Shown here: one piece after another, positions 10,265 through 52,141 of the stretch
Layout of the letters: each line of letters begins with the position of its first letter
How positions within the stretch are numbered: the stretch's first letter is position 1
Assembly (NCBI GenBank): GCA_035235625.1
Contig: CP141143.1
Span: forward strand, 21,931,092-21,995,091
Origin: Saururus chinensis
Lineage: Eukaryota > Streptophyta > Magnoliopsida > Piperales > Saururaceae
Direction of reading: 5' to 3'
DNA length: 64,000 bases
Program-made: the position numbers and the translations under genes
Notes under the pieces: model-generated
Told to the model about the DNA's origin: nothing
The model's database searches: none
What the model saw: only the letters and a program-made list of their open reading frames with translations

Positions 10265-13200
10265 TTATCTCTTCTGGAAGTTGAACGATTTAATACCATA
10301 GGCAAAAATTACAGCAAACATAACGGAGAAGCCAACCACCATAAGTCCAACGACGCCCAGGAACTCGTGCTTAAAGCCGAACTGGCTCCTGAGGAAGGAA
10401 TCTACAGTCACGGAGTGAATACCATCTGCCAGCATCATGGGCTCATGAATGCCACCGTATTGGGACGTTAGAAGGCCGTAAAGACTCCAGGCAACTGGAT
10501 TCGCCCAGTAATACCATCTCCACCATCCGGGCAAGGCCTAAAATGCAAGTTGTTAAACCAATAATTAAAACCAAACAGACCATACTTCGATATTCCTTTA
10601 CAGAAACAAATGCAGCAATAAACCATAAAAACATAGTTGTCAAGTCAAGATAGGCCTTGAAGGTAGCATAAATACCGATGCCAACTTTTATACAAGTAGA
10701 TGTGTCATTGACTGCATCCAAATACACGTGCATTAGCAATTTAGCATGTGACATGTGTCTGATTAGATTCATTTCTCCAATTGTAAGTTTGTTTCCAGCA
10801 CCCACAACGACAGAGTTGCCATACCTTATCTATCTATACTATTATTGAAGTGAGAAGGGGGGCGAAATTTTTTTGATACAGAAGTCTTAAATTACTCCTA
10901 ATATGCCTAAAATAGTATTTATGCACTCTTATTTATGAACCAGGTAAAATTACTAATCTTGAAGCTCAATTTACATATGGTAATAAGTTTCTAAATCTCC
11001 AGAGTGCAACACGTTCACTTGCACTAGTATGTCAAATAACAAGAGGTTAGCTACTTAAATTGTTCGGTTAGTTTAAGAATAGCTAAAATCAGATCAATTA
11101 TAGTGCTTCAAAAACAAACTAAAATAGCGCCTGAGCCTTGAGAGTTGGAACAGCAATTGATAGAAAATTCGGTTACTAAAGATTTGAGAAGTTCAAGCAG
11201 TAGGACTTAACTCTTGAAAATTAATATAGGCAAGCATTCATGAATAGTTTACCTTGTGGGCGATCATGAATCCACTGAACAGGTTCCACAATGTATAAAA
11301 TGGTGCAGCTATGATAGGTGCAACATTGTGATTGGGCGTGACTGCGGTAACCATCATGCCAAAGAAGGTGAAGTACAGTAAAGTGAAGTACATGAAAAAT
11401 ATGTACCAGAGGAACCTCACCAAGGTCCACTTAAATGCAGCCATTGAGTAGAATAGAGTGCCATAAATTAGTGTTTGTACAAATACGTAAGGAAATTCAA
11501 TTGCAACCTGCACAAAAGAAGATCCACAGTTGTTTAATAGAGAAAAATGTGCACCACCATATCAACCTAAAAGGAAGAACAGACCTGTGCAAAAGCAAAT
11601 GGTAAAGCTGAATACATCCCTGCAACCCTTTCTCGGTAGGAGACAAACCTCTCAACAGAGACAACTGCTTGAACAGCAGTTCCATTGGTGATACCAATAA
11701 ATAGAACTGCTGCATACATGGCTCCCATGGCATTTAAAACATCTTGTTCCTTTCCACTGTAAACAATTTCAAGACCAATACCAATTTTCAGGAATTTCAT
11801 CATTGGTAAATGTCATTCTGATAGCAAAATTTGATGTTGGAGAGGATAGGAATTTTTTTTCTGAAAATCAAATGTTAATTTTGTTCTTGGGGCTGAAAAA
11901 AAAAACTTAAAAATCTTGCAAATTTTGTTATTTAAGAAACTCTCCTGGTTCATATTATGTCAAAGCAACTGGAGGAATTACCTTTTGGAACCTAGGTTCC
12001 AACATATTGTCCCAAACATCAATGATATAATGACAGTGTAAAAGAATCTGACAGCAGTGTACTGTGGGTTTCTCCAGTAAGATAAATTTTGTTTCCAAAG
12101 GCAAGCTAAAAATTGGACACGGAATGGCTGTGAATATCTAGTTGGAAAGCTTAGGTCCTTTGATGCCCCACTTGGTTTGCTTAAACTGTGAACCAACTCC
12201 CTATTTCTCCTGAAGCAAACAAGTATGACAAAGTTAGGAATAAAGACTCCATCAAAGAAAATTTCAATCAGAAAGGATTCAACATACTGGAATAGATTAG
12301 ATCTTCGGTAAATTTCCGCAAAGTCTACACCAAGGCGGCTCTCTTCTGTGGGAGAAGTTACATCCAGCATCCATGCAGCCGGATTATAACCAGGTTTGAT
12401 TTTGGGAACTCCTTCAACAGCCTTAACATTTGAATTTCAAACAAAAGATTCAATTCAAAGACACTATCTATTTCCTATATTAATCTGAGTCATTTCTTCA
12501 GTTAATCTTAAACATACTACTTCATGCACAGTTGTAGATAACAAATACAATCTTACCTCAAAGAATTCTACCAGTTTGCATGAATTGGTTCCCAAAGGAC
12601 CAGCATAAATAAGCTCCCCTCCTCGCTTCATAAATAAAAGCTGCACAGAGATTCAATGATTGCAGAGTGGACTAGGCCACAAGTCTACAAAACGTATGCT
12701 ACTATTCTATGATTCAAAAAGTAGTTCTTTTTTAGCTTTTCTACTGTTTCACTTACTTTTTCATTAAAATGCTGTGCACATGATGGATTTCTAAGTAGCA
12801 ATATTTGGAAACAATAAGCAATAAATTTAATAGAATTACTTAGACAAAGCAATGCAGCTTTCATGTTGCTGAACACGGCTGTGATTGTTTGAAACCACGT
12901 AAAGCTACCTATAATTACCTGGCATGCATGTCCAGTTTTATGAAAACCACTAGATCATGTAATTACTTTTACTGAGAACAGAAAATACCTCATCGAAAGA
13001 TTCAAATATATCTATGCTCGGCTGATGGATTGTGCAGACAATTGTCCTCCCAGTATCCACAATGTTCCTAACAGTTCTCATGACAATGGCTGCCGCTCTG
13101 GCATCAAGTCCTGATGTTGGCTCATCCATGAACACAATAGATGGATTAGCAACAAGTTCAACTGCAATCGTGAGCCTTTTCCGCTGCTCTATAGATAACC

Positions 13201-16200: not shown

Positions 16201-16615
16201 AGAAGAAGTTGAGAGAGCAGCAGGATGGCTACACCGTCTGTCAAATGGAACAGCAAGTTCTTCCAACATTCTCTTGCCAACATGAAAAGAACAAAATGCT
16301 TCAGAAAACTTTAAAACGGGTATATATTCATAAGGGCAGTCAAGAGCAGCCCAATACTGCCGTTGATCTTTCTTTGATGTGACCTACAATAATAAGTATT
16401 ATGCAAATTAATCCAAAGGTGTCAAGAAATAACAAGCATATATATAGAAATAGTTTAGAAGCGTCCAGGCACCCAGACCCTTCTCAGCCAGCGGATGACA
16501 ATCCCTATTGCATATATATATATATATATATATAGTTGAGAAGCGTCTGGGCACCCGGACCCTTCTCAGCCGGCAGATGTTTGCCCCCATACTGCCAATA
16601 TGCACATATCAACAG

Positions 16616-16674
<59 letters not shown>

Positions 16675-19600
16675 TAGATATATATGTATGTATGCATAAA
16701 GATACACTTATGATTACTTACTTCCTGCAAAAAGTCAGCAACATTTTTTCGTTCAGGGCATCTAAAGCCCATATAGGCAAAGAAGTCAAGAACAGACTCA
16801 CGAGGTCCTTGGTAAACAATGTGGCCCTCAGATATAAGAATGATATCATCAAACAGCTCATAAGTTTCAGGAGCAGGCTGCAGGAGAGATATTACGGTGG
16901 TCCCATCAAGTGCATGGGCAGAATGCTTTAGATACTTAATAATCTGATAAGTAGTTGAACTATCAAGGCCATTTGATATCTCATCCATGAACAGCACTCG
17001 AGCAGGACCAACTAGTAACTCACCTGCCAAAAACCAATTTTTTATTGCTTTAAAGAATTCACAAAATTCAAATATTGAGATGGGTGTGAAGAAAATGGAA
17101 AAAAGGCAATCTAGTCCAATACTGGTCAAAACCATTGGACATCGTTAACAAATTACAACAAGTGGAGCTGTTCTTGAATTCCAAGGCCAATTTAATTCCA
17201 AAACGGTTTTCATATCGACTGTGTTGAAGCAACACGTTCAGTTATAAATCACTTGTCCATTTTTCAGAATATCAAAAAAACATGAGATTGAATCATTGAA
17301 AGTACCACTAAAAGCTTGCATGATAGAAGAGAATTTGCATTTACCAGTAGTCATGCGCTTTTTTTGTCCCCCTGAGATTCCTTTGATCATTTCATCTCCA
17401 ACAGGCGTGTCAGCGCAGATATCCAGTCCTAAAATCTTTGAAAGTATATTTTAGTAATTCAGACATTTTCATAGGCAATAAAGAATCATTTATAAAGAAC
17501 TGTAGCATATTTTAAAATTGCAAAAGGGTAAAAAAAGCAAGCTCCAGACTCTTTGCATTTTGTTGCCAGTGTTGTGTTAGAATATGACTATATCAATATT
17601 TCTCCTACAACCACCATGAGATGAAGCCAATACCAAATCACTGGGAATGGCATATGAGGACAAGTAGGATGGACGGATGGATGGATGGATTGCAAAGAGG
17701 TAGAAACAATATTTTATACAAAAGATAAATCTTTGGTTGCTCTTATTCAAAGTCAATTCTCACTTATTGCATTTGCTCCATCTCCATTGTAGAAGCCAGA
17801 ATGCTTGGATTTCACAGGTTTCATTCTCAGATTTTGCAGAAATAATCATGCAGCCAGCATCATTTTCCAGATCATCTTTGCTCAGCAATTTCCTTTCTTT
17901 GGAAGAAAGAAATACTCATATCTTTCTTAAGACTGAACAGCATAAAAGTTCCTTAATGACTAGCATTGAGCATGAAGTATGCACTTATGTTTCATTGTCA
18001 CCTCACTAGCCAACTCTCTAGCAGCTCTTCCATACTTAAAGATTATATAAACTTTGTAATTTTGTAATCTTCTTTTTCATTTGACTCTTTGTATTTTTTC
18101 CCTCTTTGATATGCAATAATATTGGGCTTATCACTTGCGTTGCAAAAATATTATTTTATACAAAACTATGCATTGTTAGTAGGATATTTTGGCCTAGAAT
18201 CAATGCACCTTGGTAGCCTAGCAGAGGCTTGATATTCATGCCAGTAACATCATTCTTTGAACGCAATAGAAAGGTATCACATCCAAACCATGAAAATAGA
18301 TACCTTTAGTATGTACTCCACAACAAGACTGGTCTGATCTCCTCCCAAAGCTGAAGCCTGAAAGCATGAATTACTAAGATTGGAATATGAGCAACTGATA
18401 CCTTAAACAACATGTATAATCTATAAAATATTCCTGGTTAAGGACATGTACCTTCATGAATATATCCAAGTCTTCATCAGGTTTTATTCCAGCAATCTTC
18501 TCTCTTTTTGAAAGCTCCATAAGCATATCTAAAGCAGGAACTCACGTATCACATTTAGCCAAGACAATCGTCCGAAGCCACTCAAAGCAGAATTTCCATA
18601 TTGTCTAGTACCTACCATATTTGATTCCTACACCTTGACAACGTCCTGAAAACTCTAAAGTCTCCCTTACAGTCATCTCTGCCACATGCCAATCTTGCTG
18701 ACTCACATATGCTGATGTTACCTGAGGAACAAATTCTTTTGGACTATGCCCATTGTATGTGATATTTCCTGACGTCTGCATGACATCCCATTGGCAGCAA
18801 AGCACATCAGATGCAGAAGCAAAACACATAATGGAATGTAATATGATTGTAAAGGCAGTTTATTATGTGTTAACTATGAAAACCAATAGACATCTTCCAT
18901 CATGGCCTCAAACTGGTATTGATTATAAGGTAATAGAACATTACATATGAATAATCTTGCATGCAATATAAGATGGAGTTTAGGAGTTTTTTTTATATCA
19001 GATGTAGTTTAAGAGTTGACCATAGAAAAATGATACAATTGCTATATCACGGGCAGAAATATCAAATAAGACTAAGATTAAGGTTTGAGGAATAGTTGAT
19101 AGTTTGGAAGCTCCATTCAAACTGACAAAAGAAGTACCTTCAAATCGGATCCAAGCCGACCAGCAAGAGCCAAAAGCAAAGTCGTCTTTCCAGAGCTTGG
19201 CGGGCCCAAAAGTAGTGTCATTCTGCATATCAATTTTATTGTACACAGTAAGAACTAGCTCAAGCACTTTGCTGAAGATTTGTTATACTATTACCTAGAA
19301 GGCCTGATTATCCCACTGATATTATCCAATATTGATAGTCTCTTTCTCCTGCCTGGGTAGATTCTCAACTGCTTAAGGAGGGCCTTGCGGACATAAGAAA
19401 TTCTAGATCAGAATCTCTGGTTTTAACGGTATTAAATCTTACCCAAATTAAATGGTCATATTGTACCTCAGTCATATTAAAGATAAAGTTGGGAATTGTG
19501 GGTAATGCTCTACTCCCAACATGAACATATGCATCTACACTCAGTTGTTGAAATCGAACTTCAATCTTTGGAAATTCCAAATTGACTCTGTAATCCCACA

Positions 19601-24421: not shown

Positions 24422-24913
24422 TATATCACTAGTGATGTTTTTATTATCAATGCAAACAGAAGCATCGCTAAAAATTGGTATTTGCGATGCATAAATTTAA
24501 GCGTCGCAAAAATATTAAATATTAGCGACGCTTTTAATTAAGTGTCGCTAATTATTACATAATAGTGACACTTATTATCAAGCGTCGTTATTACTATAAT
24601 TATTAGTAATGTCTAATACAAAGCGTTGCTAATTAGATAACTATTAGCGACTCATAATACAAGTGTCGCTAAAAGATATTTGTTTAAAAAAAACATAACT
24701 ATTAGCAATGTTGTTCGTAAAGCGTCGCTAATAGTTTTAATTATAGCAACTCATAAGCAAGTGTCACTAATAGTTATGCTATTAGCGATACTTAATAAAA
24801 GTATCGCTAATAGTAATGAATTTAAAATAAAAAATTAAAAATTTAGAACTATTAGCGACGCTTTTAAACATGCGTCGCATATAGCATTGATAATAGCAAC
24901 GCTTGGTCGCTAT
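24422..24913. repeat. Left subterminal array of GCGACGC motifs
   Basis: More than a dozen copies of TTAGCGACGCTT-like motifs in direct and inverted orientation, often paired so that AGCGACGCTT and AAGTGTCGCT make small hairpins. In CACTA elements such subterminal repeats are the binding sites of the element-encoded TnpA-type protein. The array is cut at 24922 by the Mutator-like element. Confidence 0.7.
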
Positions 24914-24922
24914 TAGTTTTAT

Positions 24923-25312
24923 GGGAAAATTATTAAAATAAAAAAAAATATTTACCAAAATATACTATTTCCCAAAGTGGTGTTCCTTTTTGCCATGCAA
25001 GCGCCAGCCAAGCAGCTGGCGCCAGTGTGGCTTTTTTTTTATTTTTTAAGTTGATTTCGTCGTTTAGAATGACGAAATTGGTTTGAATACGATTTCGTCG
25101 TTCTAAACGACGAAACCTTTTATTACTTGACCCGGTTTCGTCGTTCAGAACGACGAAATCAACTTAAGCTGATTTCGTAGTTCTGAACGATGAAACTCCT
25201 GCACTTATCCCTTTTCGCCCTTTGGTCGCGACTACAACACTGATTTCATCGTTTAGAATGATTAAATCACCTTAAGTTGATTTTCGTCGTTCTAAACGAC
25301 GAAATCATCGTC
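24923..25312 (+). repeat. Left terminal inverted repeat of the MULE, with palindrome array
   Basis: The first about 130 bases match the inverse of 33052-32930 closely, including CCCAAAGTGGTGTTCC. The inner part holds about six palindromes of the form GATTTCGTCGTT-(C/T)(A/T)(A/G)-AACGACGAAATC, around 25052, 25091, 25133, 25170, 25240 and 25278. Spacers such as TTATTACTTGACCCGG are shared with the right repeat. Compared with the right end, one palindrome pair is missing. Confidence 0.88.
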
Positions 25313-26142
25313 TTTTTAGCTCACCCATCCGCTCCGCCTCCATTCGGGTTTACAGTGAGTTTTTGAGTTTTCAGAGATCAATACGCTCCACCGCCGCCAT
25401 CTCGCCGCCTCTGGCCCGCCACCATCTCGCTTCCCCCGGCCTGCCACCATCTCGCCTCCTCCGGTCACCCGCCAGTCTCTGATCCTCCGGCCCGCCGCCA
25501 TCTCGCCTCCTCCGGCTTTCTAGTGAGTTTTCCCTACGCTCCGCCACCTCCTCCGGCTCATAGACAGTCTCACCTCTTCTGGCCCACCATCATCTCACCT
25601 CCTCCGGCCCACCGCCGGTCTTGCCTCCTCTTCCCCACCGCCTTCGCCATTAGCCCCCATTCTAACCACGCCAATTTCGTCCCTATTCCGTGGTATGTTA
25701 ATTCCTTTATTTTTTTTAATAATTACATTAAAAATGTGTTGATTAAAAGTATGTGCTTAAATTAAATATTTGATACGTGTCTAGAGAATTTGGTTTGTGA
25801 CATTGCATAGTTTGTGACATTAATTCGGTATTTTGGTGTTACTTGTGATTTGGATGGTTTAGTTAAAACTAAACATTTTTTGTTGAGTGGCTTTAGATGC
25901 TTTTTTTTATGGCTTATGTGGTTTGTGACATTGCATGCGTTATTGTATCAATTGTGTAATTTTATTATTTAGAAAATTTGCTTATTAATATAAAGTATTC
26001 ATGATATGCTTATATAATTGGTAAATCTATTAATTTCTATGCGTATATATTTTGAAAATATATTGGTTAGGGTAGATATTAGTATTAGTTTGCTTAATTT
26101 AATATTAATTTAATTTATTATTTATGAATTAATTGAATAGAA

Positions 26143-28826
26143 ATGGCAGAAGAAATGGTTAGTTTTTTAATTAACTACGACGGACGCATAGAAGGATTAT
26201 TAATTAAGAAACCGTCTACATTTGATAAATTTGAAATGCACGTAGCAAGCAAGGTTGGGTTGGATCGAAGAAGATGGAAAATTACTATCAAATGTAATAT
26301 TCCATCCTATGGATCGAGAATGATACTAATGCACATAAATGATGATGCATCAATGGCTTTTATGTTTCACCACTCATGTGAAAAAATTTCTTTCGAGTTA
26401 TTTCTCGAAAAAGAGGCTCGAGTGACTAGTGAAAGGCGAAGTAGTTCACATAGGAGCTCTCACAGAAGCTCACACAGGAGCTCGGATAGAAATGTGAACA
26501 ATGAAGGTCATATGCAAATGCCAGTGGACGATAAAGAAGAAGGAAATTTATCTATGACAGTAGCTTCAAATGAACGTCATAGGTCGTCTACCCCTATTTA
26601 CGATGGAAGTGGACCTAATTGGAGGTAAGGTTGATTTAATTGTGAATACGTTTTCAATCTTATTATCCTTTAATGAAAATACGTTTATCTAAATTTTGAG
26701 ATTTTGTGTGTAATATGGAAGGTCCACGATGCATGCACACAAGCCATTTAGCGTTCAAATGTCTCAAGGCGGTGCATGGTATGAAACTCAAAGTTCGATG
26801 GGCCTTCATTACCCCTACACGTATGTTGGTCATACCGATGTTGGACCATCTAATCAAAGGTGAAATCTATATTTATAAATGAATTCAACTTTTTTAGGCT
26901 TAAGAAATTTAATACATATGTGATGTTTATATGTAGGGGGGATATGTCTACAGTAAAGATATTGATGAAAATGAGGATAATGAAGGTGAAGATAATATTG
27001 ACGAAGTAAGTGGAGAAGATTCTGACATTAATGTAGAAGGGTTAGAGGTGAAGAAAGCGCTCAACAGATGGTTGACGGCGAGGGGGATGATGCGGTAGAC
27101 AATGTTGTTGCTAGGAATGATATGAATATAGATGATGAAGAGTCGTTGTACTGTGAAGTGGAGCCACTTTATGCACACATCACAGATGAGGAGATATATG
27201 CTGCAGTTAATTCTACAATGGCTATAGACCAACAAAATGAAGATGAGTTATATATTGGTCGTATCTTTGAAAATAAAGAAGCATTTGTTACAGCCTTGCA
27301 GGAGTTTTCTATTCAAAATCATGTCGAATACAAGGTTGTACGAACAAATCCGTCGGAGTATACAGTGAAGTGCATTGATAGCACTTGTCCTTGGAGAGTG
27401 CATGGCTCAATCAAAAGGGGTGGTGGGTACTTTAAATTGAAGACGTACAAAGGTGACCACACTGTCGGAATGCCCAGCTTAGCACAGATCATAGGCAATG
27501 CAGTGCCTCCTTTATTTCGAAGGTCATAATGCCCACTATCCAAGCCGAATTAACTCTAACACCAGGGGATATTATTCAAAGAATGAAGGAGAAGTACCAT
27601 GTTGACATATCTTATAAAAAAGCATGGGCAACAAGGAATATGGCGATCAAGGCTATTTATGGAGATTGGGTAGAATCGTATAAACTGTTGCCAATGTACC
27701 TAAGGGCGGTACAAGAAGCAAATCCTGCCACCTACTACCGCTTACAGGTTGATGAAGTACATCGTGCAGATGGTGCCATATGTAGGCGATTTAAGCATTT
27801 GTTTTGGGCGTTTGGTCCATCTATTGCAGGGTTTCGACATTGCATCCCCGTGATTGGTGTTGATGCCACTCACTTGTACGGCAGATACCCTAGTGCTCTT
27901 ATGGCTGCAACGGCTACAGATGGAAATAATGGGTTATTTCTTCTTGCATTCGGGCTTGTCGGGAAGGAAGATGGAGACAATTGGAAATGGTTTCTAATGG
28001 AATTGGGGGATCATGTACTGATGGGCATGATGAACATCGTCATTTTTTCAGATCGACATAAGGGGCTTCAGAAAGCAGTGCCTGAGGTTCTTCCAGAGCC
28101 GGATTACCACCATCGTTATTGCATCCATCACATAAAAGCAAATTTTAAGGAGTTCAAAAATGATACACTGACGGACTTGATTGGGGCAACAGCTTGTGCA
28201 CTCACAGTAGAAAAGTTTGATGCTAAAATGGACTTGATTGGTCAAGAGAGTCCTAGGGCAAAACATCTCCTCTTAGGAGGAGAATTGCATCCTACACAGT
28301 GGTCCCTTGCACATGGTGGTTTTATGACATTTGGCATGACGACTACAAATATGGCTGAAAGTTTAAATAACGTCTTAAAGGGGGAACGAGGTTTACCTAT
28401 GCAGGCTTTAGTGTCAACTATCTTTTATCGGCTTATAAAATTTTTTGTTAAACGATCTTCTGCCGCCTCTGCCATGGCCACCCCATATACTCCTAGAGTG
28501 GAAGCCATATTGAGAGAGCAAACAAGAAAAATTAGGGAGTATATAGTTAATATGATCAACAGGAATCAGTACGAAGTGACATCAATTCGTGCCCGAAAGG
28601 TTATGGTAAATGCTGCGATGCATACTTGTACATGCAACATCCCTTAGGTTTATGGTTATCCTTGCTTGCACCTTATCGCCGTGTGGGCAAAGCGGCGGGA
28701 GCCAATCCATGCATCATTGTTTTACACATCTTCTACTTATAAAAATGTGTACTCCGTAGAATTTTATTCTCCTCGTGGTCGGGAGTATTGGGAGAGGGAT
28801 ATACCTTTTGTGTTATACCCACCGAT
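26143..28826 (+). pseudogene. MuDR-type (MURA) transposase gene, broken
   Basis: Exon 1 (26143-26624, true ATG) encodes an N-terminal PB1-like region ending in an Arg/Ser/His-rich repeat. Exon 2 is 26722-26859, and exon 3 begins at 26937. Exon 3 holds an acidic stretch, a Mutator DNA-binding domain (about 27240-27470, with a CPWRVHGS motif), the MULE transposase core (GVDATHLYG near 27857, FSDRHKG near 28046, a CIHH motif near 28118) and a SWIM zinc finger (CTC...CLH, 28627-28670). Lesions are a frame change near 27040, another near 27463 inside the HTC motif, and an in-frame TAG at 28645-28647 within the SWIM finger. The last codons run into the LTR-like insert at 28827. The product would have cut and joined element ends, but this copy cannot make it. 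Confidence 0.88.
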
Positions 28827-30933
28827 TTTAACACCCCGACCCGTACCACCCGATCTGGACTGGGGGTTAGATCAGAAGACAGAATCGGAGTGTATAAAAT
28901 AAGCAGAAAAATTAAAATTGACTGACTAGGAGCTGCAGACTCTGAGTGCGAGAGTCGTAACGTTCATCTGCGCACTGTGGAGCTTTAACGTTCCATTGTG
29001 CGTAGATCAGAACAAACCTAATTTTATAACTAATTTGGATCGGGCCAACGTTATTTTATCGTTGGTTGCCTACGTACATATTGGATACCATCTCTGACGT
29101 TAATCCAAAACAATCGGATCCGAACGTAGTTCTGCCTAATGGTTAATACATTTACCAGACATCAGAAAATCATATACGATAAAATATGTATATGTTATAT
29201 CTGAATGATTCATTCGGAATCCAATGGAAATCTTATCAATTATCGAAGTTAAATGGAAGCCAATAAATCAGAAAATACACATCTCACGTAGGTGAGAAGA
29301 ATACTAACAAAATACACATCCCACTCTATCATAGAGCGGGGCAGAACACACTACAGAGCCTGTTGGATCATATCAGATCCTATCAAATCATATTAGATCA
29401 TATCGGATTTATCCGACTATACTGGTCATATCAGATCAGAGTATGTCAAGTCATAGCAGAGAGCATTTCAGATCACAACAGAATAAATCAAGATGTGCAG
29501 TCATATAAAGCATATTAAACTAGAAGGTCAGGAAAGCATACTCCCCTCCAATTTTGGAAGTAGCGATGTTCGGAATTGCTCATTTCCTCAGAGCGTCCGC
29601 CCTTTCTAATCCGGAGACTGCGGCCAGAACCTCCTGTAACTTCGGAATACTTTACCCTTCTTGCGTCCATAGACGGAAGACAGAACCTCCCCTTACCCGG
29701 AGACACTATACCCTCACTGCGCCCGTAGGTAGCGGACAGAACCTCCCCTTGTTCGGAGACACTTTTCCCTTCCCGTGCCCGTAGGCAACGAGCAGAACCT
29801 CCCCTTACCCATGGGATGTTTCTCTTACATAACATTGATAATTCGAGGAGTGGATGCTTCCATTGCGTTGCTCACCCTTGAATTAGCTAGGAAGACCTCT
29901 TGAAAGACTCTAATCGAACTTAAAATGAGTAAGAAATGAAGAACGGAAGATGAGAAAACGTGAGAGAATTTCCCCTTACCCGGAGATATTTTACCCTTTT
30001 CGCGCCCATAGGCGGCGGACATAACCTCCCCTTGGCCCGGGACGTTTCCCCTATATAGGGTTGCTAACTCGAAGAATTGACGCTTCCATTGCGTAGAACA
30101 CCCTCGATTTAGCTAAGAACGCATTTTGAATTGAAGAAAACAGACGCAGAATGACTCCAGAAACTCCCCCGGAAGAATAAACGGAATGACTATTTATAGT
30201 AGAATGGCATGTGAGCGTACGGCAAAATTGTAAAAATGCGCGCAGGCACTCACGCCATGTGGCGCTTCATAAATGGCCCAAAATTTGAGGCAGCGCGCAT
30301 AATGCGCATGTCACACGCTTGTTAACCCGCCGCGCGTGGCGCGTAGGATCGCACTGCACATCTGACATGCAACGTGCGCGTCCGTCGCCCATCCTGCGTG
30401 CATCGCGCGGTCAGCCTCACGATCGCCTGGGACCCACGTCGCGCGACGGCTGCGATCGCGCGCCGGTTTCGCAGCGCGACGGCTCAATGGCGCGGCAGCG
30501 CGGCTCCTGCTCCGGCCCGGCTCGGCTCTGCTTGTTGACGTCAGCTATTCTGTCTTTTTCTGAATATTTTATTATTATTTCATACAAATACAATTCCAAT
30601 TTCAAAACGTGATAACTTTTTATCCCGAAGTCGGAATTGCCCGATCTTGGTACCAATGGAATCGTATTGACAAGCCCTTTAAAACTAGACCGCATATGGG
30701 TAGGTTATCTCATATTTTTAAAGTGGGTCCCACCCATGTGGTACATTTCCCGAGGTCGTAACTTTCGTTCCCGACCTCCGTTTTGAGTGTTCTTGGGTGC
30801 GTTGTGTTCGTTACTTCGAGCTCTACCCAGATACAAGGATTTCACCTAATGAAACCCCATAATACTGATATCAAAATACCAAATTACCCTTAACCTCCCC
30901 GGGTTAAGCATAACTGGAAGACGGGTTGTTACA
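28827..30933 (+). mobile_element. LTR-like block inserted in the MULE, relative of the solo LTR at 42952
   Basis: It starts TTTAACACCCCGACCCG and ends GACGGGTTGTTACA, a degraded TGTAACA...TGTTACA pair. It shares long segments with 42952-45457, such as TTTGGATCGGGCCAACGTT, GGTTGCCTACGTAC and GATCCGAACGTAGTTCTGCC, plus a GC-rich 3' third. A short irregular array of GATCATATCAGATC units (29365-29440) sits where the relative has its 20-bp array. I found no target duplication at its borders. It separates the transposase 3' end from a PMD gene lacking its 5' exons. Confidence 0.75.
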
Positions 30934-31039
30934 TTCTTCCCCCCTTAAAGGAATTGTGTCCTCACAATTCTCCTGAAAATACTTTTCAAAATACAAGTAT
31001 TTTAATTCTAATATTTGTTATCACTATTTTATTATATAG

Positions 31040-32431
31040 TTATGGTCGTGGGAGCACTTACATGTCGGCCGACCAACTACTGAGATGGGTCGCTTGGTCG
31101 AGGGTGCTCCATTAGGGGCGAGGTAGGTTGTATTTATGTTTACCACATTACTTTTTAAGCAACATTTTATGTACATATGCTGAACTCATTTCTAAAATTT
31201 AACTCCTTAAGGTGGAATGTTCGGAAGAAGATAACCGAAAATCCACAAGGAGTCCTCCGTTTGTATAGAGGGGAGTTAGACCACCAGCGGCCATACCAGG
31301 TAATTTTATTACCGTGTTGAACTTTTTAATGTAATAATTTTAAAAAAATTTATCATTATTTAAACTAAATTATCTTTATATATTATATAGATTATTTGGC
31401 AGCCGTACTCGGAGGACTTGTTGGTTGTGATACCTCCACTCTGCATGGACGGTCGAGAGGTGTGGCTTTCTCGAACCCCTCTAATATGTTACGAGATTAT
31501 AGAGATGTATGTGTCAGATCGTATAATGCTCCAGTTTAACCTGGAGCAAGGGGTCCCACCTTCTATTGTCGAGTTTGTCCATCGCATCACTCGACAGGGC
31601 CGCCATATTACCGACTGGGCTATATATTATGCGTCGTATATTGCTCGATGGGAGGATAGGAGAGCCACTGTTATTAGAGGGGAGATGGCTACGACATTGC
31701 GTGATGTTCGTAGTACTTATATGCACTGGCATTTACCAATTACACGGTGATATATTTTACCACGCGATGATGTAGAGGAGATGACATATCAGCCTAGGGG
31801 AGCATCTGAGGCAGCTCTAGTAAGTACAACTTTGTTAATTAAGGCATATATTATTTTCTTATTTTGTTTTAATTATTTATCTAATATTTAATTTATTTTT
31901 TTATAGCTTCGTCAAATTTGACATACTAATGCGTATTTGAGTGATGCACTTGTCACCTATACTTCGCGCAAGGACTTAGCAGCAGCATGTGAGTCTGTGA
32001 TTAGAGCATCTAATGATGTCCTTCGTAGCTTGCTACTACTTTATTCGGTGATCATGGATGTTCATCGAGATTATCCTGTCAACGAGGCCGCTCAGACGCA
32101 GCCGATGCACTCTTCATGCCCTGATATTCCATCATCATCAGCAGCATATAGCTCTCCTCCAGGATCATCATTTCCAGACACTACACATGTAGCTCAACCA
32201 GATCCGATTTTATATTATAGACGACATCGGCCAGCTCATATTGTACCATCTATTACTTATGCTGAGCCGGAGCCGGAGCCCGAGCAGGAGCCTACCATGG
32301 AGTCGCAGCCAGAGCCCGAGCCTGAGCCCCAGCCCCAGCTGGAGCCACAGCCAGAGCCACAGCCAGAGCTTGAGGTAGATCATGAGGAGCTCGTACACCA
32401 CCATCGAGGACGAGGACGTAGGAGATTATGA
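31040..32431 (+). pseudogene. Plant mobile domain (PMD, MAIN-like) gene, 5'-truncated with two stops
   Basis: Four exons are readable: 31040-31122, 31212-31299, 31391-31819 and 31907-32431, with GT-AG borders and closing phases. They give WSWEHLHVGRP, RWNV, LYRGELD and IIWQPY motifs of the PMD (aminotransferase-like) domain seen in MAIN/MAIL1 and in many plant transposons. A Glu-Pro-rich tail follows (about 32260-32380), ending in RGRGRRR. TGA codons interrupt at 31748-31750 and 31919-31921. Both could come from CGA by a C-to-T change. The upstream part of the domain is missing, and the LTR-like block lies in its place. The role of PMD genes in transposons is not settled; effects on silencing are suspected from MAIN and MAIL1. 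Confidence 0.8.
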
Positions 32432-32639
32432 CATTACTTATGATGTATTATATTTGTTACTCGTCTATGGTGTACTTTACTTATATTTGTTATGGTGATA
32501 TTCATGATAGTGATATTTGTTATGGTGATATTTGTTATGGGTGGAATGAATGAAGTTGTGCATGTATTGTGTATGTTTTGAATGAATGAACAGGGACAAG
32601 TGATAAAATTAGTTTTAAATGGTAATTTTAAAAAAAATT

Positions 32640-33052
32640 AATTTGATTTCGTCGTTTAGAACGACGAAATCACTGTTGTTCCGAGACCAAAGGCTGAAAT
32701 TAGCCAAGTGTGGCAGTTTCGTCGTTCAAAACGACGAAATCAGCATAAGTTGATTTCGTCGTTCTGAATGACGAAACCGGGTCAACAACAGTTTCGTCGT
32801 TCAGAACGACGAAATCAGCTAAAGTTGATTTCGTCGTTCTGAACGACGAAACCGGGTCAAGTAATAAAAGGTTTCATCGTTTAGAACGACAAAATCATAT
32901 TCAAACCAATTTCGTTGTTCTAAACGACGAAATCAACTTAAAAAAAGGTCACGCTGGCGCCTGCGTGGCAAAAAGGAACACCACTTTGGGAAATATTTCC
33001 CAAAGTAGTATATTTTGGTAAATATTTTTTTTATTATTTTAATAATTTTCCC
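32640..33052 (-). repeat. Right terminal inverted repeat of the MULE, with palindrome array
   Basis: The inverse of the left repeat, with about seven TTTCGTCGTT...AACGACGAAA palindromes (near 32644, 32718, 32750, 32790, 32827, 32870 and 32909). Several are near perfect. GACCCGG-type spacers recur between them. The outer 120 bases carry GGAACACCACTTTGGG and an AT-rich end. This copy is slightly longer than the left one. Confidence 0.88.
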
Positions 33053-33186
33053 TAGTTTTATTAATTAATTTTATTTAATAAATAAGTATATAATAAATAA
33101 ATATTAAAAAAATTAAAATAAACTTAAATATAACATATTTTATTTAATATTTACTATTTTTATGTATAATAAATAAATATTAAATT

Positions 33187-34742
33187 TTCAATAAAAAGGG
33201 AGAGAAGACAGAGAAAGAGGTGAAAGAGAAGGAGAGAGATAATGAGGGAGAGAGAGTGTGTGAGGAGAGAGAGTGTATGAGGAGAGAGAGAAAGAGGGAG
33301 GAGAGAGAAGAGTGAGAGACGGAGTGAGAGAAGAGAGAGAAAGAGGGGATAAGATGGTGAGGAGAGAGAGAGAAGAGAGGGAAAGAGAAAGAGGGATGGA
33401 GAGAGAGAGGATGAGAGAAGAGAGAGAGATAAAGAGGGGAGGAAAAATTTTAATTAGAAATTATTTTTGAAAATTTTTAAAAATAAAATATATATATAGT
33501 AGCAACACATACCTATATGCATCACTAGTACAATTTTTTTTTAAAATAAATAAATAAGTGAAAAGGGAGAGAGGCGAGAGACAAAGAGGAGAGAGAGAAG
33601 AGAGAGAGGGCAGAGAGAGAAAGAGGGGGAGAGAGAGAGATAGAGAGGAGGGAGAAGAGAGAGGGGGAGAGAGAGAGAAGGAGAGAGAGAGAGAGGAGGG
33701 AAAGAAAGAGAGGGAGGTAAAGAGAGAGAAAGAGGGGAGAAAAAAATTTAACTATAAATTATTTTTAAAATTTTTAAAAAATAAAAAATATTTAGTAGCG
33801 AAGCATAACAATATGCGCCACTACTACCTTAGGTAGTAGCAACGCATACATGTCGCTACTACCTTGTGTAGTAGCGATGCATACTGGTATGTGTCACTAC
33901 TACAATTCTTTAAAAAAAAATTAAATAAAAGAGAGAAAAGGAAGAGAGAGAAGAGTGAGAGTGAGGGGGAGAGAGAAGAGAGAGAAAAGGGGAGAGAGCG
34001 AAAAAGAAAGAGAGGGGGAGAGGGGAGAGAGAGAGGAGGGAGGAGAGAGAGAGTGACAGAAGGAGAGAGAAAGAGATAGAGGAGAGAGGAGGGAAAGAGA
34101 GAGAGGATGAGGGGAGAGAGAGAAGAGAGAGAAAGAGGAGAGGAAAATTTTAATTATAAATTATTTTTAAAAATTTTAAGAAAAAAATATATCTAGTAGC
34201 AACGCAAAATTATATACATCGCTACTATTGTATGCATCGCTACTACAATTTTTTTTAAAATAAATAAAAGAGAGAAAAGGGGGAGAGAGGAGAGAGAAGA
34301 GAGGGAGAGGGAGGAGAGAGAGAAGAGAGATAGCAGAGAGGGAGAGGGAGAAGAGAGAGAGAAGAGAGATAGCAGAGAGGGAGAGGGAGGAGAGAGAGAG
34401 AAGAGTGAGAGAGAGGGGGAGAGATAAGAGAGAGAGAGAGAGAAAAAGAGTGGGAGAGGGAGAGGGAGAGGGAGGGAGGGAGAGAGAGAGGAGGGAGGAG
34501 AGGAGGGGGGAGAGAGAAAGAGAGAGAGAAGAGAGGAGGGAGAGAGAGGGAGGGAGGGAGGGAGAGAGAAAAAGAGGGGAGGAAAAAGAATTAATTATAA
34601 ATTATTTTAAAAAAAAAATTAAATAAAAAAATATCTAGTAGCGATGCATAAAGTATGCATCGCTACTACCTCATACTTGTATGCATCGCTACTACAATTT
34701 TTTTTAAAAAAATAAATAAAAGAGAGAAAAGGGAGAGAGACA

Positions 34743-34774
<32 letters not shown>

Positions 34775-35000
34775 AAGGAGGGAGGAGAGAGAGACAAAGA
34801 AGAGAGAGGAGGGAAAGAGAGAGAGAGAGAGGGGGGGGGAGAGAGAGAGAATAAGGTATTATTAAAAAACTATTTTTAAAATTTTTAAAAATAAAAAAAT
34901 ATATTATTAGCGATGCATACTATGTGCATCGCTACTATGTTAATTATTAGCGATGTATAAGTGCATACGTCACTAACTAAGCGTATTAGTGACACATAGT
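33187..35000. repeat. Tandem modules: GA-rich tract, AT linker, GCGATGCATAC hairpin
   Basis: About five units of roughly 300-430 bp. Each has a 150-300 base GAGAGA/GGGA purine tract, then AATTTTTAAAAATAAAAAATAT-type linker sequence, then a hairpin based on TAGTAGCGATGCATAC and GTATGCATCGCTACTA, then ACAATTTTTTTTAAAATAAA leading into the next tract. Hairpin zones are near 33500, 33790-33900, 34195-34250, 34637-34695 and 34907-34960. The hairpin core resembles the GCGACGC subterminal motif of the host CACTA-like element. Open frames of Arg/Glu repeats here are by-products of the purine tract. Confidence 0.8.
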
Positions 35001-42946: not shown

Positions 42947-43540
42947 AAGGTTGTGACGACCCGACCCGAGCCGGGCCCACAAAATCGCTAATAGGAAATT
43001 TTCTCTTTCCTTGAGCCAGGAATCATCGTCTGAGTGCAAGAGGTACAACGTTCGTCTACGCACTACGGAGCTTTAAGGCTTCTTCGTACGTAGATTTAGG
43101 TTGTAACGAACACATACACACGACGAAGTTTCATAGTTCATCGCGTGTAAAACAAAATAAAACATATTATTATAATGATTTGGATCGGGCCAACGTTGCC
43201 TTGCCGTTGGTTGCCTACGTACGTATTGGATATTATCCCAATACGATCGGATCCGAACGTAGTTCTGCCTAATGGCTACTACATACTACAAACATCACAA
43301 AATTATACGTATAAAATACATATCTCCAAATATTTAATCGGAGTATACAAACACTCATCATATATCGGAGTCAAGCAGAAGTTAATAAATTAACGGAATC
43401 GTACATCTCGCTCTACCATAGAGCGGGATCGAAATCTCATACACGTATCTCGATCTATCATTGAGCCGAGACCGAGAACACAAATTACACGTCTCGCTCT
43501 ACCCTAGAGCGAGACCACACACGTCATATAAGTATACATC

Positions 43541-44140
43541 ATGGCATCTAGGCACATAGCATGGCATATAAGTACATAGCATGACATATAGGTACATAGC
43601 ATGACATATAGGCACATAGCATGGCATATAGGTACATAGCATAGTAAATAGGCACATAGCATGACATATAGGCACATAGCATGACATATAGGTACATAAC
43701 ATAGTATATCTGCACATAGCATGACATATAGGCACATAGCATAGTATATAGGCACATAGCATGGCATACAGGCACATAGCATAATATATAGGTACATAGC
43801 ATAGTATATAGGCACATAGCATGGCATATAGATACATAGCATAGTATATAGGCACATAGCATGGCATATAGGCATATAGCATAGTATATAGGCACATAGC
43901 ATGGCATATAGGTACATAGCATAGTATATAGGCACATAGCATGGCATACAGGCACATAACATAATATATAGGTACATAGCATAGTATATAGGCACATAGC
44001 ATGGCATATAGGTACATAGCATAGTATATAGGCACATAGCATGGCATATAGGCATATAGCATAGTATATAGGCACATAGCATGGCATACAAGTACATAAC
44101 ATAGTATATAGGTACATAGCATAGTATATAGATATATAGC
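43541..44140. repeat. Thirty-unit 20-bp tandem array with a 180-bp higher-order repeat
   Basis: Units of the type ATGGCATATAGGCACATAGC run for exactly 600 bp with no insertion or deletion. Variants alternate (ATGGCATATA or ATAGTATATA followed by GGCACATAGC or GGTACATAGC). The nine units at 43741-43920 recur as 43921-44100 with about five differences, a second-level duplication. Because 20 is not a multiple of 3, all three minus frames stay open and show the same 20-residue CYVPIYYAM-like repeat. I do not regard these frames as genes. Confidence 0.95.
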
Positions 44141-44854
44141 ATATAGGTATAGTAGCGGGATACAGAGTTGTTTACTGCCCTTATGTCTCGTATAGTAGAG
44201 GTACACGGAGTTGCTCACACGAGCATCCTTCCCTTCAGATCCGAAGATATTAGACGGAGCTTCCTCTAGCCTTCATACGTTCCTCATCTTGTACAGAAAG
44301 ACTACGTATAAATGTTCTCCTTACCGGAGACTCTTCTCGTTTCCTGTGCCTGTGAGTGGCGGACAGAACCTCCCCTAGTCTGAATTACTTCTCTTGATGT
44401 AGCTTGGCAACTTCGGACAGAATTCCGTCTTGCTCCGGGCCCATATTTCTTGTTCGTTGCTCGAGGATGACGGGTGGAGCATCTCCTTGTCTCAGGGTAT
44501 TTCCTCCTTATACGGTTTCCGAATCAAAGAACGGACCTCTCCATCGTGTAGAACATACTTGATTTAGTCAAGAACGCCTCTTGGACTGACTAAATCGGAG
44601 TTGGGATGACCAGAAACAGAGAAAACAAAGTTCGTCGGTGCATGAAGATAACGGGCAGGACCTCCTCTTGTCTTGGGACGTTTCCTCATCATACAGTCTC
44701 CAACTCGAAGAACGGACAGCTCCATTGCGTAGAACATACTCGATTTAGTAGGAAACGGGTCTTGAACGGCCTTAATCGGCCTCAGAACGGTCAGAAACGG
44801 GGGTAGAGAAGTTCTGGGTCAGAGAAGGAACGAAATGGGGTATATATAGACCCC

Positions 44855-51906: not shown

Positions 51907-52141
51907 CCAAATATTGTTCTTAATCATCAATTTTAGATGGATTTTACTACCATTGACACAATTGTCTGTGCACCAACAAAATCCAAATATTGTTCTTAAT
52001 CGTCAATTTTAGATGGCTTTTACTACCATTGACACAATTGTCTATACACCAACAAATCCAAATATTGTTCTTAATCATCAATTTTAGATGGCTTTTACTC
52101 CCATTGACATAATTGTCTGTACACCAACAAAATCCAAATAT
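51907..52141. repeat. Three tandem copies of a 75-76 bp unit
   Basis: The units start CCAAATATTGTTCTTAATC at 51907, 51983 and 52058, with a partial fourth at 52134. Each holds TTTTAGATGG, CATTGACA and CACCAACAAA. They differ by only a few bases, so the amplification is fairly recent. Confidence 0.9.

Follow-up and report, generated by a model that had tools for sequence, protein, structure and literature searches.

The DNA element lying at 24923..33052 of the window, i.e., the whole 64,000-nucleotide stretch of Saururus chinensis DNA that we analysed, is a Mutator-like element (MULE) of 8,130 bp, whose two terminal inverted repeats (TIRs) carry arrays of near-identical short palindromes. The arrays recur, mostly in a fixed register, at the ends of the related elements that we sampled in the host genome, and the arms of the palindromes vary much less than the linkers between them. 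We propose that these arrays serve as repeated docking sites for the Mutator-type transposase of the element itself, a putative binding that we regard as moderately probable.

Organization of the element and of its ends

The element is flanked on both sides by a perfect 9-bp target-site duplication, TAGTTTTAT (left copy, 24914..24922; right copy, 33053..33061; both unstranded), a length within the 8-10 bp typical of MULEs. Its TIRs, located at 24923..25310 on the + strand (first letters GGGAAAATTATTAAAATA) and at 32640..33052 on the - strand, are about 390-413 bp each, i.e., above the 100 bp expected for a MULE. They match one another at 95% across 156 nt, and their outer blocks (29-43 nt) at 93-97%. 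Together with a PF10551 transposase domain, these features confirm the assignment to MULEs made in the preliminary description, along with the 9-bp duplication that it reported. As its TIRs are built from internal repeats, the element can also be called Foldback-like, a label for structure and not for lineage. It is not a CACTA element, since it has GGGAAAA..TTTTCCC ends and a 9-bp duplication instead of CACTA ends and a 3-bp duplication, and its long, well-matched TIRs differ from the degenerated ones of VANDAL (VANC-type) elements; VANDAL21 of Arabidopsis is itself a MULE-type element. A search of the window against Rfam gave no match at the gathering thresholds.

The features of the transposase gene are all on the + strand. 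The first open frame (26140..26628; 162 amino acids; no Pfam match) is, judging from its position, probably the N-terminal exon of this gene. It is followed by DBD_Tnp_Mut (PF03108), the MuDR-type DNA-binding domain (27242..27430; E 4.2e-12), and, in a different frame that stops at the TAG codon 28645-28647, by the MULE transposase domain (PF10551; 27850..28143; E 4.4e-18, above the curated cut-off). The window copy is broken by a foreign repeat, LTR-like by eye (28827..30999; unstranded), which replaces about 1.13 kb present in relatives such as L013; the matches of the relatives end at 28826 and restart at 31000, and the foreign repeat recurs in L013, L016 and L080. The main exon of a second gene encodes a plant mobile domain (PMD; PF10536; 31391..31750, +; E 2.7e-18), and the downstream open frame with proline/glutamate-rich repeats (31922..32431, +) probably belongs to the same gene, given its position. 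All 110 scored genome matches to the PF10551 region, the one in the window included, show 87-100% identity, and the DBD_Tnp_Mut-homologous stretch was found by tblastn in 25/25 copies, some of them with stop codons. A PMD match occurs on the same strand, 1,656-1,703 bp downstream, in at least nine of 20 sampled transposase copies, a lower bound because these matches were picked by eye among 150 scored of 1,679 candidates.

The preliminary description also placed six or seven palindromes in each arm, and we indeed found six TTTCGTCGTT-NNN-AACGACGAAA palindromes in the left TIR and seven in the right TIR. Scanning for arms TTTCGTCGTT and AACGACGAAA with a 3-nt spacer and up to four arm mismatches returned 23 raw matches, which correspond to 13 distinct sites; when the 8,130-bp sequence was dinucleotide-shuffled 100 times, the mean was 0.28 raw matches (maximum, 2). 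No further palindrome was detected elsewhere in the 64-kb window, even with up to five mismatches. The common unit is 23 bp long; the length of about 27 bp first given for it, which includes flanking GA and TC on both sides, applies to only two of the 13 sites. From left to right, the left array comprises L1 (25055..25077, +, spacer TAG), L2 (25093..25115, -, CTA), L3 (25136..25158, +, CAG), L4 (25173..25195, -, CTG), L5 (25244..25266, +, TAG, with four arm changes) and L6 (25282..25304, -, CTA). The right array comprises R7, the innermost (32647..32669, +, TAG), R6 (32717..32739, +, CAA), R5 (32754..32776, -, CTG), R4 (32792..32814, +, CAG), R3 (32829..32851, -, CTG), R2 (32872..32894, +, TAG) and R1, the outermost (32910..32932, -, CTA).

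The spacer thus has an orientation, YAG or its complement, CAA being the single exception. Because the orientation of neighbouring palindromes mostly alternates, adjacent palindromes combine into larger ones, of 62 bp and 137 bp in the right end, where a 75-bp two-site unit is also duplicated in tandem (32714-32860). The spacing of the sites follows no simple 10.5-bp phase. All cytosines of the consensus arms are in CpG, with four CpGs per palindrome, i.e., 24 and 28 in the palindromes of the two ends of the window copy before decay. Two more palindromes accompany the arrays in the ends: ACCACTTTGGGAAATATTTCCCAAAGTRGT, whose left-end copy is shortened, and a hairpin of the GCCACGC..GCGTGGC type. 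The outer 30-bp palindrome ACCACTTTGGGAAATATTTCCCAAAGTAGT (32980..33009, -) also occurs in relatives, and alignment and consensus place at 24966..24981 (+) its remnant, cut by a gap of 12 bp when compared with the right end. The second outer hairpin is GCCATGCAAGCGCCAGC..GCTGGCGCCAGTGTGGC in the left end (24992..25031, +), and the second outer palindrome is GTCACGCTGGCGCCTGCGTGGC in the right end (32948..32969, -).

Spread and conservation of the arrays in the host genome

Genome-wide, we counted 7,434 palindromes with up to three mismatches (G/G at position 8) and 1,986 ends with the outer palindrome, both against 0 in the controls. With positions 6-8 left free, the scan gave 4,091 sites versus nine in the control; together with the shuffles, these controls rule out a chance origin of the arrays. 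Among the 50 sites listed, position 6 is T in 100/100 arms and position 7 is C in 93, while position 8 is variable. A second pool, with the C-type arms TTTCGTCCTT/AAGGACGAAA (C/C at position 8), amounts to 3,122 sites with at most one mismatch (control, 0). The C-type copies (TIRs L033 and L047; transposases L053 and L067) are sisters in a tree of 21 copies (support 0.975; n=2), and the DNA-binding domains of L053 and L067 are almost like those of the other copies.

Two samples were chosen independently of the array. Sites are present in 35 of the 40 slices taken upstream of transposase copies, with at least two sites in every one of the 32 slices that have a recognised end, and slices seeded by the outer palindrome show an array in 19/20 ends. 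The sampled relatives therefore carry the palindromes, the absence of which was to count against the preliminary description. The sampled ends have two to eight sites (eight in L041, with a repeated block), and the dominant register is 38-43-37-70-37 bp. Other copies with such ends and 9-bp duplications, which the preliminary description proposed to look for, also exist: short copies with 9-bp duplications and sites in both ends are L008, L017, L089/L090, L099/L100 and L102/L103, and the duplication was found in four of five candidate end pairs, plus L017. L094/L095 has a perfect 9-bp duplication and an array-free end, which may have lost its array after insertion. Since the arrays occupy the same place in the same register at both ends and travel with the element, they are not a satellite inserted independently at each end. 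Outside plants, an exact match to TTTCGTCGTTNNNAACGACGAAA was absent from viral_contigs and occurred once in genome_contigs; this was an isolated site on a bacterial contig, the 585 bases examined containing no array, and we took it as a chance match.

Conservation was measured on transposase- and end-seeded slices, as loci seeded by the palindrome itself are biased for conservation. We kept 41/60 slices, with at least 240 aligned positions at 85% identity or more; the 19 others aligned poorly to the G-type consensus and included L095, most of the C-type ends and the five site-free slices. The end consensus was built from arrays with a recognisable end. In this set, A/T positions changed in 9/1,710 cells of the arms, 85/1,015 cells of the linkers (arms lower, P 8e-28), 13/218 cells of the spacers and 146/3,823 cells of the outer repeat. 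In the same copies, A/T variation is thus 11 times higher in spacers and 16 times higher in linkers than in arms; part of this contrast could reflect anchoring of the alignment on the arms, or conversion among sites. In the subset of 18 TIRs (20 minus the C-type L033 and L047), the corresponding values are 4/753 for the arms versus 21/447. The changes that did occur in arms are mostly CpG deaminations (123/152).

Proposed transposase docking and its alternatives

From these data, we propose that the arrays are read by the transposase. In this reading, each 23-bp palindrome can be viewed as two inverted half-sites, with the core (GA)TTTCGTC-N-TT, separated by a 3-bp spacer, and such paired half-sites would suit a protein dimer. 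Two to eight sites per end in a mostly fixed register would allow several transposase subunits to be loaded on each end, and these subunits may help the pairing of the ends ahead of cutting. As all cytosines of the consensus arms are in CpG, CG methylation could gate the binding. In favour of this reading, the (A)TTTCGTC core also occurs in the terminal repeat of maize Mu, as primers for Mu ends read GCCTCYATTTCGTCGAATC(C), which contains ATTTCGTCG (PMC2774946, PMC1878487); this match comes from a comparison aimed at the Mu end and not from a blind scan, and we estimate the chance of a 9-mer match within the repeat of about 215 bp at <1%. In addition, mobile Mu ends are described as holding a conserved site bound by MURA (PMC3440606), a protein with DBD_Tnp_Mut (PMC9569675), and the transposase studied here has the same DNA-binding Pfam domain as the maize enzyme. 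The multi-site transposase platform suggested at the outset therefore stands as a reading, in view of the spread over sampled copies, the fixed register and the conservation of the arms. Several observations argue against it: the perfect duplication of L094/L095 in spite of one array-free end; the lack of a simple 10.5-bp phase in the site spacing; the DNA-binding domains of elements with C-type arms, which are almost like those of the others; and the matching of position 8 in 20/25 undecayed sites, which arm pairing predicts too. Moreover, the product of the second gene, instead of the transposase, may be the reader of the sites.

The arrays could alternatively be the place where the PMD gene or the transposase clears methylation, thereby permitting transcription and movement, as VANC does on VANDAL MULEs. 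We consider this unlikely as the main explanation, and it is compatible with transposase binding at the same sites. The PMD gene is commonly the second gene, as seen above in the sampled transposase copies; the motif read by VANC21 is 9 bp long and occurs in dense arrays (PMC5735166); MURA is reported to lower methylation in nonautonomous TIRs (PMC10398659, citing Burgess 2020); and an anti-silencing role of MULE-captured PMDs has been proposed, as a speculation (PMC5418596). However, the VANC motifs have a single orientation and are not palindromic. The CpG counts are divided as well: among the 41 ends, a smaller share of the CpGs changed in the arms than in the outer repeat (143/1,124 versus 70/377, P 0.006), but this difference is absent for deamination-type changes alone (123/1,124 versus 52/377, P 0.14), in the comparison of arm with linker CpGs (14/153 of the latter changed, P 0.24) and in the 18-end set (58/499 versus 23/162, P 0.41), so that a lasting protection of CpGs is not evident. 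A bolder proposal, which we regard as similarly unlikely, is that proteins encoded by the element read the palindromes as a methylation-gated, all-or-none switch. Numerous dimers of the transposase (or of the PMD protein) would bind together to an end that is free of methylation, which would stay open, and all of them would be lost together once the end is methylated. Such a switch would merge the logics of the MURA site and of the VANC array, and would place this family of MULEs, with its approximately 2,000 recognisable ends, under all-or-none control.

It is rather improbable that the palindromes act as DNA or RNA structures, whether as cruciforms at the ends or as transcripts whose hairpins feed small-RNA production, as the preliminary description envisaged. 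Single-strand folds are predicted to be strong (z -13.8 and -16.1; 0 shuffles as good), and siRNAs often arise from the long TIRs of Mutator-like elements (PMC10398659), but the predicted folds join neighbouring palindromes, which contradicts the row of many short stem-loops initially pictured. The G/G and C/C pools at position 8 are both symmetric, as pairing would have it, but this is also expected from a homodimer. The arms match at position 8 in 20/25 undecayed sites (chance mean 14.3, P 0.01), which keeps the idea alive, whereas the five others are mixed, and L089/L090 and L102/L103 (one layout) keep mixed sites at both ends. Finally, the decay of 186 sites (those of the window and of 20 loci seeded by the palindrome) proceeded without compensation between arms: of the double changes at the nine positions other than 8, 20 were compensated and 26 were not (26.9 expected in all if independent), i.e., no excess of compensated ones, which argues against hairpin upkeep, and position 8 was mixed (17 compensated, 14 uncompensated; 19.7 expected).

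Least probable of all is a neutral by-product, in which slippage or template switching at palindromes enlarged the arrays in an ancestor and the copies inherited them: the tandem 75-bp unit of the window and the repeated block of the eight-site L041 do indicate that array expansion is ongoing, and copies in one young family share features through descent, but neutral inheritance does not predict the excess of A/T variation in spacers and linkers over arms.

Significance and comparison with known systems

To our knowledge, there is little understanding of the manner in which Mutator transposases recognise and pair their long ends. With its approximately 2,000 recognisable ends and a varying number of near-identical sites per end, this young family offers a natural dose series, which bears on the number, arrangement and methylation state of the half-sites needed per end. 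The core motif shared with maize Mu adds to its value for such questions, and its comparative data help to separate the protein-site from the hairpin reading of such palindromes. In the open-licence PMC papers that we consulted, palindrome arrays are not described for the ends of plant MULEs; as MULE ends with repeated sites, and CACTA elements with palindromic subterminal repeats, are already in print, what appears new is their combination.

Similarly to maize MuDR/Mu, the element has a 9-bp duplication, long TIRs, MULE and DBD_Tnp_Mut domains, and ATTTCGTCG in the half-site as in the Mu end primers (PMC2774946, PMC1878487). It differs by its two to eight palindromic pairs, versus the conserved MURA site per TIR of about 215 bp described for Mu (PMC3440606), and by its second gene, a PMD gene. 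Among MULEs, a parallel in architecture comes from Aedes aegypti: Muta1 has TIR repeats (nine copies of a 12-bp unit) and an imperfect 10-bp palindromic terminal motif, and in Muta1 and other MULEs of this mosquito, termed "type2 Foldback", the unit number varies in derivatives (PMC5225508). As subterminal tandem repeats occur in 10/12 mosquito MULE families with long TIRs (PMC5225508), the contrast first drawn with usual Mutator ends was too strong. Unlike the mosquito tandem repeats with their 3-4-bp spacers (PMC5225508), the repeats reported here are palindromic, have arms rich in CpG and are joined by longer linkers. In the soybean CACTA elements Tgmt*/TgmR*, subterminal repeats can give rise to palindromes in rows (2 and 12 for Tgmt*) and are taken as protein-binding sites, with methylation tied to loss of binding, but these elements have CACTA ends, a 3-bp duplication, and repeats outside a short TIR (PMC2613891, PMC4219821). 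The noncoding parts of VANDAL21 likewise hold a short motif in dense arrays, but this motif, YAGTATTAY, is CpG-free, in one orientation and bound by the anti-silencing protein VANC21 (PMC5735166), and the TIRs are degenerated (PMC10398659). Drosophila Galileo also has several sites for its transposase domain in a long, internally repeated TIR, and its authors proposed higher-order transposase complexes; it belongs to the P superfamily, with a THAP domain and direct repeats (PMC3688188). Lastly, MULEs of grasses and Amborella also carry a PMD, which is there described as fused to the transposase (PMC5418596), whereas here, judging from the open frames, it lies in a separate downstream frame.

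The element and its palindromes

The stretch at window positions 24923-33052 is a Mutator-like element, because it has a perfect 9-bp duplication, matching ends (24923-25310, plus; 32640-33052, minus) and the DBD_Tnp_Mut and MULE domains, which bears out the MULE with a 9-bp duplication proposed in the preliminary description. A plant mobile domain (PF10536) lies downstream of these domains. The copy is broken, since the DNA-binding and catalytic parts of its transposase lie in different frames, a stop closes the transposase frame at 28645-28647, and 28827-30999 is taken up by a foreign LTR-like repeat (about 2.17 kb), in place of the roughly 1.13 kb present in relatives such as the L013 locus. 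This repeat is also found inside the loci of other MULE copies (L013, L016 and L080), and in L080 it stops beside a palindrome-like remnant.

The palindrome arrays described in both ends are also present, with 13 distinct sites (6 left, 7 right), far more than in shuffled sequences. The single-strand folds are very stable, but neighbouring palindromes pair with each other in them, rather than forming the many short stem-loops of the preliminary description. The spacer between the two arms of each site is oriented (YAG or its complement, CAA once), and site orientation alternates for most neighbours. The 13 sites contain 11 arm changes, every one at a CpG position; nine are C-to-T or G-to-A, the signature left when methylated cytosines decay. 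Sites 2 and 3 are separated by a linker (25122-25135) that contains TTGACC, which we take to be a W-box-like hexamer; this hexamer also occurs near the arrays of L033 and L047, which have C at arm position 8 (C-type).

The left flank (24700-24912) holds another palindrome-rich repeat family (AGCGTCGCTAATAG / CTATTAGCGACGCT), presumably resembling CACTA subterminal repeats; similar repeats border insertions in L008 and L013 and are arrayed in L017 and L020. On the right, the insertion is directly followed by a long purine tract, rich in GA, whose 49-97-bp periods are imperfect (33190-34940). Elsewhere in the window are a minisatellite of ~20-bp units (CATGGCATATAGGCACATAG; a 40-bp unit in 15 copies) at 43540-44143, a 76-bp tandem repeat (3.1 copies, 93% matches) at 51907-52141, and ABC-2 type transporter pieces (PF01061, PF19055) on the minus strand at 11981-12436 and 16569-17144, probably exons of a PDR/ABCG-type gene.

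Arrays across the host genome

The plant mobile domain gene and the type of MULE suggest that the host is a flowering plant. In its genome (516 Mb, 11 contigs), the 27-base palindrome pattern (up to three mismatches) has 7,434 matches versus none in the control, and the outer palindrome, a 30-bp palindrome outside the array, together with GTGTT (up to two mismatches) marks 975 + 1,011 ends, with none in the control. The transposase has 110 scored matches among 3,974 first-look candidates, every one of at least 87% identity. The family looks young from its sequence identities, since, among 20 copies compared, those with G-type arrays (G at arm position 8) are mostly 95-98% identical to one another (about 93-95% for L060 and L064) and 93-94% identical to the window copy. 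Sites with C at position 8 of both arms (at most one mismatch) number 3,122, and the two sampled transposases with C-type arrays are sister in the tree. In L034 and L068 a C-type palindrome is located 315 bp outside the locus's own first site, and in L034 the intervening stretch resembles a terminus of a related but older element.

Arrays were also sought in samples chosen independently of them. Slices of 701 bp upstream of 40 transposase copies (20 across the list of 110 scored matches, 20 from its lower part) contained sites in 35 cases; the other five had no end either, so that the slice probably missed it, in one of them, L080, owing to the LTR-like insert. All 32 slices with a recognised end or outer palindrome held at least two sites. 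Among 20 ends found via the outer palindrome, from 100 places listed, 19 had arrays, the exception being L095. Further copies with 9-bp duplications, which the preliminary description proposed to look for, were found, four of five candidate end pairs having identical 9-bp flanks. L094/L095 is one of these pairs, and it therefore possibly reflects movement with one array, or later array loss. Counted from the outer end, most arrays in 20 palindrome-seeded 10-kb loci follow the register TAG-38-CTA-43-CAG-37-CTG-70-37, and all six palindromes are perfect in a consensus built from 19 ends, the window's two plus 17 in these loci.

Half-sites, arm pairing and CpG decay

The reading that fits the sites best is that a protein would recognise the arms one at a time, in most cases as a symmetric pair. 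With three bases per arm left free, the genome holds 4,091 sites versus 9 in the reversed control. The 50 sites listed, all from a single end of contig 1, have T at position 6 in 100 of 100 arms and C at position 7 in 93, while position 8 varies (G 48, C 23, A 21, T 8). Both arms of these sites have the same base at position 8 in 21 cases versus 16.4 by shuffling (P 0.09); where both arms carry G or C there (25 sites), they agree in 20 versus 14.3 (P 0.01) and five are mixed. Mixed sites (TTTCGTCGTT with AAGGACGAAA) are kept at both ends by two elements of one layout. Over 186 sites, double changes at the nine positions other than 8 are compensated in 20 cases and uncompensated in 26, and at position 8 in 17 and 14, respectively. 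Judged from these patterns, arm pairing itself is not maintained in copies; it may have been in the family's ancestor.

In 41 of the 60 transposase- and end-seeded slices, changes at A/T positions affect 9/1,710 cells in arms (which may gain somewhat from gapped local alignment), 13/218 in spacers, 85/1,015 in linkers and 146/3,823 in the outer repeat. Arm position 2 is T in 289/289 half-sites and position 10 in 281/281. Arm CpG positions are changed in 143/1,124 cells, 123 of them by deamination-type changes. A durable shielding of the arms from methylation may exist but is not evident, because arm and outer CpGs changed equally often in the 18-end set (58/499 versus 23/162; P 0.41), and in the 41-end set the somewhat lower arm value (143/1,124 versus 70/377; P 0.006) gave P 0.14 for deamination-type changes only and P 0.24 against linker CpGs (14/153).

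A candidate reader and known systems

The family's half-site is GATTTCGTCGTT, nine bases of which are common to maize Mu end primers as excerpted in their sources. The footprint of MURA, the maize Mu transposase, in Benito and Walbot 1997 reportedly takes in these bases. The published primers include ATTTCGTCGAATC (excerpts of PMC2774946, PMC1878487), mobile Mu ends are described as having a conserved MURA site (PMC3440606, in part), and DBD_Tnp_Mut, present in the window transposase, is also assigned to MURA (excerpt of PMC9569675). This nine-base match points more strongly than any other finding to the transposase as palindrome reader.

Most likely, transposase dimers would cover two to eight half-site pairs per end. 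The motif being short, specificity would come from the number of sites, as proposed for Galileo; several dimers per end would aid the pairing of the two ends, and methylation of the CG sites in the arms could prevent this covering at once. Searches of the open-licence PMC literature turned up no description of a MULE whose ends consist of inverted half-site pairs in rows, at such copy number and with every consensus cytosine lying in a CpG. The principle behind palindrome arrays is already known, since the relevant sections of earlier work describe MULE ends with repeated units (PMC5225508), Galileo ends with multiple sites (PMC3688188), soybean CACTA elements whose subterminal repeats are palindromic (PMC2613891, PMC4219821) and the motif arrays of VANC (PMC5735166).
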